Shown here piece after piece: positions 21,134 through 55,971 of a stretch of 64,000 nucleotides of DNA (its first letter is position 1; the number at the start of each line of letters is the position of its first letter). Source of the stretch: Thermobaculum terrenum ATCC BAA-798 (GTDB lineage Bacteria; Chloroflexota; Chloroflexia; Thermobaculales; Thermobaculaceae); contig NC_013526.1 in NCBI RefSeq assembly GCF_000025005.1, positions 496,001-560,000 of the forward strand. Direction: 5' to 3'. The notes under the pieces were generated by a model. That model worked only from the letters and a program-made list of their open reading frames with translations, ran no database searches and was not told the origin of the DNA. The position numbers were made by a program, and so were the translations under genes.

Positions 21134-22663
21134 CTAGGACCCCTTCGCGCCGGTGCCGTCCTGATCTGGACTTATCGCCTGGAGCTCCGCTGAGCGCTCG
21201 ACGTGCTCCCGCAGCCCCGGCACTCGCTCCAGCAGCTCGGCTATCTTCATCCCCGTGAGGCTCTCCACCAGGGTGGGCGCGATCGCGACCATCCTCGCCA
21301 GGTCCTGCATCACCTGGTTGACGCCCGAGCCGTTGGCGCCATCTCCGGTGGAGATCACGGTGATGCGGTCCACCTGCGACAGCGGCTGCGACATCTTGGC
21401 GAGCATCTCGGGCAGGTTCGTGATGATCTTATCCAGGATGGCCGCCTCGTTGTAGCCCTGGAAAGCCTCCGCCTTCAGGCGCATGGCCTCCGCCTCGGAG
21501 GTGCCCTTGGCCTTGATGATCTCGGCCTCGGCCTCGCCAGTGGCCCGGATGACCTCCGCCTGTGCTTGTCCCTTGACGCGGGCCACCTCGGCCTCCGCCT
21601 GTCCCTGCGTCCTGGCGGCCTCCGCCCTGCCCAGAGCCTCCAGGATCTGCCGCTGGCGCTCGGCCTCTGCCAGGAGCTGGATGCGCTGCCTCTCGGCCTC
21701 CGCGGCCTTGAGGACCGTCGCCTGGAGCTCGCGCTCCCTGCGGGCGATCTCGGCCTCCTGCACCTTGATCTGCTCCTCGCGCTCGATGCGCTGCACGCGC
21801 ACCTGCTCGGCCACCACCTGCTGCTGCATGACGTTGGCTTGGATGTCGTACGTCTTGTCGGCTATCGCCTGCTGCTTCTTGACGGCGGCCAGGTACTCGG
21901 CCTTCTTCAGCTCCAGGTCGCGCCTGGCCTCGGCCTGGCGGGCCTCGGAAGCGGTCTGCGCGATCACCGTCTCCTGCTGCGCGAGCGCCTGTGCCACGGC
22001 GGCCTCCCTGGCCGTCTCCGCTTGACGTATGGCGGTGTCCCTGGCCGCCTCCGCGGCCGCTATGTTGGCTTCCTTCTGGATGCGCGCGATGTCGGGCTTG
22101 CCCATGTTGGCGATGTACTCGTTCTCGTCGCGCACCTCCTTGATGGTGAAGCTCACGATCTCCAGCCCCATCTTGGACAGGTCCTCGGCCACGTTGGCGC
22201 GCACCCTGTCGGACACCATCTCGGGCTCCTTCACTATCTGCTCGACCGTGAGCTGCCCTATGATACCCCTCAGGTGCCCCTCCATCACGAGGCGGATCAG
22301 GCTCTCTCGCTCCTGCGGGGACTTGGTGAGGAACTGCTCCGCGGCCGTCTTGATGCTGGTGGGGTCGTTCTTGACCTTGATCTGGGCCACAGCCTCCACG
22401 TTGACCGCGACGCCCTGAGTGGTGTAGAGGTCCCGCTCGGGCGAGACGTCGAAGCTCATCAGCTCAAGGGAGAGCTCGCGCGCCGACTGCAGCATGGGGA
22501 TGACCAGCCTGCCCCCTCCCGTGACGATGTGAGTGCCCCCCAGGCCGTAGATGATCAGGGCCTGGTTGGGGCCGACCTTGCGGAACATCCGGGCGATCAG
22601 CGCCAGGATCAGCACCAGGACCAGCGCCAGGATGATCGCTATCGTGATAGCTATCGTGGTCAT
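21134..22663 (-). CDS. Flotillin/SPFH membrane-scaffold protein
   Basis: A 509-residue flotillin. An N-terminal helix (TIAIILALVLVLILALI) anchors it, followed by the SPFH/PHB domain (about 30-190) and a long coiled coil rich in Ala/Glu with repeats such as EAEVARVKGQAQAEV (about 200-410). The C-terminal oligomerisation part is also present. Bacterial flotillins organise functional membrane microdomains. Its start overlaps the NfeD gene stop by four bases, the usual flotillin-NfeD partnership. Confidence 0.92.
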   Translation of the reverse strand: MTTIAITIAIILALVLVLILALIARMFRKVGPNQALIIYGLGGTHIVTGGGRLVIPMLQSARELSLELMSFDVSPERDLYTTQGVAVNVEAVAQIKVKNDPTSIKTAAEQFLTKSPQERESLIRLVMEGHLRGIIGQLTVEQIVKEPEMVSDRVRANVAEDLSKMGLEIVSFTIKEVRDENEYIANMGKPDIARIQKEANIAAAEAARDTAIRQAETAREAAVAQALAQQETVIAQTASEARQAEARRDLELKKAEYLAAVKKQQAIADKTYDIQANVMQQQVVAEQVRVQRIEREEQIKVQEAEIARRERELQATVLKAAEAERQRIQLLAEAERQRQILEALGRAEAARTQGQAEAEVARVKGQAQAEVIRATGEAEAEIIKAKGTSEAEAMRLKAEAFQGYNEAAILDKIITNLPEMLAKMSQPLSQVDRITVISTGDGANGSGVNQVMQDLARMVAIAPTLVESLTGMKIAELLERVPGLREHVERSAELQAISPDQDGTGAKGS

Positions 22664-23307
22664 GCTTGCTCCCTCCCCTCCGGTTGACTTTGTGGGCCGC
22701 CCGCGCCGATCCCCTTCAGGTCACGCCCACCCCGATCGTGCTCCTCCAGCAGCTTCTCCAGCGGGCGGACGTAGGCTATCCCCCGCTCGTAGCGCAGGAT
22801 CACCACCTGCTCTCCACGGGGGATGGGAGAGCCGTCAGCGCTCCGGGCCCCCTCGCTGCGCGTGGTCCCGTGCTGCGTGAAGATGATCTCTCCGATGCGG
22901 CTGCCGGACATCGGGATGCTCACCCTCGCCAGCGTGCCCTCCAGCCTGTAGTCGCTGGCCCTGAGCGCGGGCGTCTGCCCGGGGAGTATCACCCGGTCCA
23001 GCAGGAGGAACACGAAGGATGCCCCCACCATGCCACCCAGCACGGCGATGGTGAGCACGGCCAGGATCCCCATCGCGCCCCACTGGGTGAGCAGGTAGCC
23101 TATACCGCCAAACCAAGTGATGAAGGCCATCAAGGTGGACACGTTCAAGGGGGATGCGTGGGCGGCGTCGGCCTCGGCGCCTGACAGATGGTGCGCGTCG
23201 TGGCCCATCCCGGGCAGGTGCAGCTCAGCAGCGGCGAACCCCAGCAGGAAGCTCAGGATCACGAAAGCGAGCCCGAATATAAAGAGCCCCAAGAACACGT
23301 ATGCCAT
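22660..23307 (-). CDS. NfeD-like membrane protein, flotillin partner
   Basis: A 215-residue membrane protein with three to four helices (about 3-25, 62-80, 82-110) and a C-terminal OB-like domain ([20 protein letters not shown], then [19 protein letters not shown]). It matches the short NfeD/YuaF type that works with flotillin. The ATGA overlap with the downstream flotillin gene implies translational coupling. The upstream 90 bases hold the promoter region but no clear consensus. Confidence 0.88.
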
Positions 23308-23560: not shown

Positions 23561-23610
23561 GGGCTGGCGCGCCGTCCCTGCAAGGGGGCATAATGCTCTG
23601 GGAGGTGCGC

Positions 23611-23853
23611 GTGTCGGAGCGACCCATACTGTATAGCCACGAGCGTTGAAGCCCCTGCAGGGCGGTCAAGGAGTTCCTTGGCCAACTGGGCGTAGCGTAC
23701 GAGTTGCGGGACGTCACCAGGGACCCTCGTGCCTTGGAGGAGTTCCTAAGTCTTGGCGCCCCCCTGCCTCCCGTCGTCCTCTACAAGGGGAGATGGGTGG
23801 CTGGCTACAAGCCGGACGAGATCGAGCACCTCCTGGCCGATCTGCTCGGCTAG
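23611..23853 (+). CDS. Glutaredoxin-like protein with in-frame TGA at the first active-site Cys (candidate selenoprotein)
   Basis: An 80-codon gene, normal length for small bacterial glutaredoxins. It reads VSERPILYSHER-[TGA]-SPCRAVKEFLGQLG, then AYELRDVTRDPRALEEFL, PPVVLYKGRWVAGYKPDEIE and LLADLLG. The TGA at 23647-23649 falls exactly on the first residue of the C-x-x-C motif, giving U-S-P-C if decoded as selenocysteine. Sixty-seven sense codons of clean glutaredoxin sequence follow it. GTG at 23611 has GGGAGG five bases upstream; an ATG at 23593 is the alternative. A hairpin fitting the bacterial SECIS rule follows the TGA. The other reading is a nonsense-mutated pseudogene, which the adjacent permease remnant makes plausible. 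Confidence 0.7.
23664..23683 (+). promoter_or_regulatory. Candidate bacterial SECIS hairpin
   Basis: GGTCAAGG pairs with CCTTGGCC over eight pairs (one G-U) around the four-base loop AGTT. The loop begins 23 bases after the in-frame TGA and has G in its second position. The published bacterial SECIS consensus asks for an apical loop about 16-37 bases downstream with a G in the first two loop positions. The hairpin also encodes conserved glutaredoxin residues, so it could be coincidental. Confidence 0.5.
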
Positions 23854-55894: not shown

Positions 55895-55971
55895 GATTGG
55901 CTCCTTCTATTTGTGCAACAGCTCACTAATAAGCGGCAAAGGTCTACGTGGTCATGAGTCGCCCCCTCCTT

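Follow-up and report, generated by a model that had tools for sequence, protein, structure and literature searches.

A predicted selenocysteine-containing redoxin of the glutaredoxin/NrdH type in the aerobic thermophile Thermobaculum terrenum

Introduction

Glutaredoxins with selenocysteine (Sec) in a UxxC active site are a listed class of prokaryotic selenoprotein (PMC13188914, PMC9312934, PMC1794560) that has experimental support (PMC13188914, PMC9312934), and searches of the Sargasso Sea set (PMC1088965) and of complete genomes (PMC1794560) have turned up members. Related glutaredoxin-like (seleno)proteins that carry U in this position are covered by the models for UXX-star families 1–3 (NF041114, NF041211, NF047338) and Uxx_star (NF041212); the motifs given for families 1 and 2 (UxxT and GxGU; PMC13188914) lack a second Cys. 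The bacterial SECIS (bSECIS) model specifies a stem of 4–16 bp and a loop of 3–9 nt with G in its first two positions, located 16–37 nt after the UGA and with a minimum free energy (MFE) ≤ −7.5 kcal/mol (PMC13188914).

According to a review, aerobes seldom keep selenoproteins (PMC13188914). Thermobaculum terrenum YNP1 is an obligately aerobic heterotroph with an optimum of 67 °C (PMC3035366), and a literature search of titles and abstracts found no paper linking Thermobaculum with selenoproteins. Its genome consists of two contigs of 2,026,947 and 1,074,634 bases (3,101,581 in total), equal in size to the published replicons (PMC3035366). Here we describe a small redoxin gene with an in-frame TGA in a 64,000-nucleotide stretch (the window) comprising positions 496001–560000 of contig C2, the GC-rich chromosome 2.

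Results

The redoxin gene and its in-frame TGA

The frame at 23593–23853 (+) translates as MLWEVRVSERPILYSHERUSPCRAVKEFLG...LLADLLG* and contains a single in-frame TGA, codon 19 when counted from ATG 23593, after which 67 codons stay open up to the TAG stop, just as an earlier note on this DNA had read it. That note had given the range as 23593–23853, with an ideal GGGAGG ribosome-binding site. The site is present (23600–23605, +), and the likely start is GTG 23611, because GGGAGG lies 5 nt before it; ATG 23593 is probably too far upstream of the site to serve. The coding sequence (23611–23853, +; supported by translation, Pfam, homologs and AlphaFold2) would then have the TGA as codon 13, and the protein has the 80 residues originally given. 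The homolog alignment confirms the note's placement of the TGA (23647–23649, +): it coincides with the column of the first Cys in C-x-x-C and so occupies the first position of a U-S-P-C motif. The resolving Cys of the UxxC is encoded by TGC at 23656–23658 (+) and is invariant in alignments A2 and A3; Pro54 (23770–23772, +), encoded 3′ of the TGA, occupies the cis-Pro site of the glutaredoxin fold and is invariant in 13 homologs.

The gene is flanked on one side by a divergent flotillin pair and on the other by a PAS/GAF histidine kinase, and stands alone between them. The pair consists of a flotillin/SPFH gene with a membrane-protein gene next to it and lies upstream of the redoxin and divergent from it (21134–23307, −). 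No promoter or terminator match was found near the redoxin, and at four orthologous loci the neighbours differ and no operon is shared with the window locus.

Selenocysteine machinery

The four components for which the earlier note had proposed searching are all in the genome: a tRNA-Sec gene (selC) with anticodon TCA (71.2 bits), selA (505.6 bits), selB (above its cut-off) and selD (L061, G000:C1:499779-500726, 365.7 bits). The selD gene has an in-frame TGA of its own, in ...ASCAGUAAKLG, at the place of the SelD catalytic Cys/Sec. Among the 101 genomes surveyed (T. terrenum and relatives), selA is over its cut-off in 84. It was detected in 15 of the 16 genomes with a TGA-containing glutaredoxin, the lone exception being a genome only 51% complete, versus 70 of the 85 others; since selA is nearly universal among the relatives, this association is uninformative.

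Fold and nearest known proteins

The protein matches Pfam PF00462 (Glutaredoxin) with 41 bits against a cut-off of 22.9, and AlphaFold2, run on the read-through protein with a 13-row alignment, gives a confident glutaredoxin fold (mean pLDDT 94.4). Among the best Foldseek matches in the PDB are BC3987, NrdH redoxins and C. (Alkaliphilus) oremlandii cGrx1, and the sequence search agrees. The nearest structures are NrdH-type redoxins and BC3987, not classical GSH-dependent glutaredoxins, a small correction to the earlier description of the product as a normal glutaredoxin.

The thioredoxin-like protein BC3987 (PDB 3zij/3zit) is the top fold match, and YruB (TIGR02196) is the top NCBIfam match, yet its 49.4–49.7 bits are under the cut-off of 88.55; both have C-x-x-C where the window protein has U-x-x-C. 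NrdH-redoxin (TIGR02194; PDB 4fiw, 1h75, 4hs1) is among the best sequence and fold matches, also under its cut-off (45.2–45.6 bits versus 85.75). It is similar in size and shares the G-[FY]-[KR]-P-[DE] tail region, but unlike it the window protein has Sec for the first Cys and its gene is not beside nrdEF. Scores against the UXX-star and Uxx_star models are 18.3–32.4 bits (cut-offs 66–100), and the window protein has a second Cys where the motifs given for UXX-star families 1 and 2 have none. No NCBIfam model claims the subfamily above cut-off, and it has no curated model.

The closest described systems are the Sec glutaredoxins (UxxC, PF00462), cGrx1 and Geobacter sulfurreducens Grx, which have in common with the window protein the fold, the first-position Sec and the SECIS-type hairpin. 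The structure of cGrx1 (PDB 7c10/7c12), presumably the Sec-Grx of Kim et al. 2011 (a study cited in PMC13188914), superimposes with a TM of 0.84–0.85 at about 30% identity. The window protein differs from these in belonging to a separate sequence subfamily, in its NrdH-like W-x-x-G-Y-x-P-D tail and in its aerobic thermophile host. The subfamily consensus is THERUSPC...PLPPVVxYKGRWVAGYxPD.

Conservation of the TGA and Sec/Cys exchange

A search for related loci in genome contigs returned no confirmed relatives; homologs were surveyed by genome search across the 101 genomes. Orthologs with a single TGA at the identical column (L015, L016, L017, L018) occur in four genomes of the same family (G001, G002, G003, G005). 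Three are complete and about 60% identical to the window protein, and the fourth (L018, in G005) reads N after the motif. Third-position changes dominate after the TGA, and comparison of the 67 post-TGA codons of the window gene with those of the three complete orthologs (Nei–Gojobori) gives dN of 0.27–0.37 and dS of 1.1–1.6; because dN is far under dS, this part of the gene is selected as protein. The alignment of close homologs that had been suggested thus finds the TGA kept in four relatives and the rest of the frame conserved, and the window gene has no further stops or frameshifts.

These data bear directly on the possibility that the gene is a pseudogene, an ordinary glutaredoxin gene in which a Cys codon recently mutated to a nonsense codon. 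TGA is one base from the Cys codons TGC and TGT, and 41 pseudogenes are counted in the published annotation of T. terrenum (PMC3035366), but the retention of this TGA in four further genomes of the family (about 60% identity), the purifying selection after it, the intact frame and the conserved TGA-linked hairpin (below) make this reading very improbable.

In more distant relatives the active-site column is either TGA or Cys (L020/L069 and L092 are among those with Cys). A 49-member tree built on 78 columns, with many forks left open, requires at least eight Sec/Cys changes, four of which are forced by well-supported branches. A supported clade unites the window gene, its family orthologs and a sister family of the same phylum, f52. 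Three members of f52 are Sec versions; the fourth, L092, is a Cys version with a short stem only and is nested among the Sec members. Such repeated changes argue that Sec and Cys are interchangeable at this column, a sequence pattern that would be expected of a real selenoprotein position.

One further locus, L045/L086 (G001:C53:8735-8929), is a second Sec-redoxin copy damaged at its 5′ end, without the UxxC motif and the upstream part, and is probably a decayed duplicate.

The hairpin after the TGA

A hairpin of the bacterial SECIS type, GGTCAAGG-AGTT-CCTTGGCC, follows the TGA at 23664–23683 (+; folding and homolog comparison). It has eight pairs, one of them G-U, and an AGTT loop (23672–23675) whose first base is the 23rd after the TGA, leaving a UGA-to-loop gap of 22 nt; G is the second loop base and the MFE is about −13.6 kcal/mol. 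These values agree with the bSECIS model as stated in PMC13188914, and every element of the hairpin that the earlier note described (eight pairs, AGTT loop, loop at base 23, match to the bacterial SECIS rule) was recovered. Of the 1535 TGAs in the window (all frames, both strands), only 9 (0.6%) are followed within the allowed range by a hairpin as good as this one, and the stem score of the gene is matched by 1 of 500 synonymous recodings of the stretch. An Rfam scan of the window at gathering level gave no matches.

By raw folding energy the Sec and Cys homologs are only weakly distinguished (the z-score of the hairpin region is modest, with means of −0.94 and −0.07 respectively), and we therefore adopted a fixed-position stem measure (range 16–31 nt past the TGA, a G being required among the first two bases of the loop). 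By this measure the mean score is 6.75 for Sec versus 3.14 for Cys loci (34 versus 29; Mann–Whitney p ~5e-10, not corrected for relatedness); the row of one Sec gene (L089), probably anchored wrongly in the computation, works against this contrast. Two Sec genes of the sister family (L094 and L095) have weak hairpins by this strict measure. All 30 Sec genes with stem scores of at least 5 have a loop whose first base is number 23 or 24 after the TGA. In most family members, then, the SECIS-type hairpin goes with the TGA and is missing beside Cys.

Alignment of 13 Sec genes reveals an eight-pair helix round a GTT-type loop, with changes on both sides at four of the eight pairs. Compensatory cells number 13 (3.5 in shuffles) and the covariation score is 0.359 (0.119 shuffled; none of 500 shuffles as high); slid registers of the helix score worse. 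A single shared register for all hairpins was tried and fails, as loop sizes differ by gene: the 4-nt AGTT loop is found in T. terrenum and L017, and most others have a 3-nt loop, one pair over.

Since UGA is read through at a low level in some bacteria, near-cognate read-through of the TGA as another amino acid (e.g. Trp or Cys), with no Sec involved, might also yield a full-length protein. The site needs a redox-active residue, the genome has a dedicated tRNA-Sec, SelA, SelB and SelD, and the hairpin accompanies TGA and not Cys; we consider this explanation highly unlikely. Termination normally competes with Sec decoding, but a TGA acting mainly as a regulatory stop, yielding a 12-residue peptide under selenium shortage with regulation as its output, has a negligible chance of being correct, given that the entire post-TGA protein is under selection as a glutaredoxin fold and that the four orthologous loci have no conserved downstream operon to regulate. 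The pseudogene, Cys/Trp read-through and regulatory-stop readings were all rejected on conservation grounds.

Discussion

The gene very probably encodes a glutaredoxin/NrdH-type selenoprotein in which UGA 23647 is decoded as Sec under the direction of the hairpin. The aerobic life of the host counts against this reading, given how seldom aerobes keep selenoproteins (PMC13188914), as do the modest folding-energy z-scores and the weak hairpins of L094 and L095. The earlier preference for a selenoprotein over a nonsense mutant is borne out by the machinery, the kept TGA, the purifying selection and the TGA-linked hairpin, and the redoxin adds a member to the already known UxxC selenoprotein class.

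From the gene, the machinery, the conserved TGA, the hairpin and the fold, all established by computation, we infer Sec insertion, a catalytic cycle, an electron donor and a client. SelB and tRNA-Sec(UCA) would decode UGA 23647 as Sec, directed by the hairpin at 23664–23683, to give a redoxin of 80 residues that has the thioredoxin fold and U-S-P-C at its active site. Its selenolate would attack substrate disulfides or similar oxidized thiols, and the resulting mixed selenosulfide would be resolved by Cys16. The oxidized redoxin would most likely be re-reduced by NADPH-thioredoxin reductase and not by glutathione. Thioredoxin reductase is present in the T. terrenum genome, whereas glutathione synthetase was not found there with PF02955, the only model used, which was positive in 9 of 14 controls. 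The former is therefore the likelier electron donor, and dependence of the redoxin on GSH is doubtful.

Ribonucleotide reductase (RNR) is a possible client, since three large subunits are present in the genome, one of the NrdE/NrdA type and two of the B12-dependent NrdJ type. For the NrdE/NrdA-type enzyme the class Ib model is far under its cut-off. One of these three, an NrdJ-type enzyme (616 aa; G000:C2:560966-562378), lies just past the end of the window.

More tentatively, and with doubt outweighing conviction, we suggest that the gene and its orthologs may constitute a distinct Chloroflexota subfamily of Sec-redoxins, NrdH-like and fed by thioredoxin reductase, in aerobic thermophiles lacking glutathione, where selenium would serve general disulfide reduction in the presence of air and at high temperature.

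If the selenoprotein assignment is right, this is a real selenoprotein gene that standard gene callers would miss or shorten, and T. terrenum, a cultivable aerobe growing at 67 °C, would be a handy system for asking why some aerobes keep Sec in small redoxins. The obligately aerobic host at this temperature and the lack of a curated NCBIfam model are points of mild note. The family also offers a good set of genes for testing Sec/Cys exchange, since the hairpin comes and goes with the TGA in most of its members.

Two more TGAs in the window, at 55955 (+) and 12766 (−), are each flanked by open frame and have a strong hairpin within the allowed range, but seem not to lie in known protein. Elsewhere among the surveyed genomes, three glutaredoxin–PDZ fusions (L031, L034 and L035, in G013, G022 and G016, respectively) carry a SECIS-type hairpin and have TGA in place of the codon for the first active-site Cys (U-P-Y-C). 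T. terrenum itself has a Cys version of this fusion (L011, G000:C1:563655) with the motif C-G-F-C, and Pfam identifies both the glutaredoxin and the PDZ domain in L034, L035 and L011.
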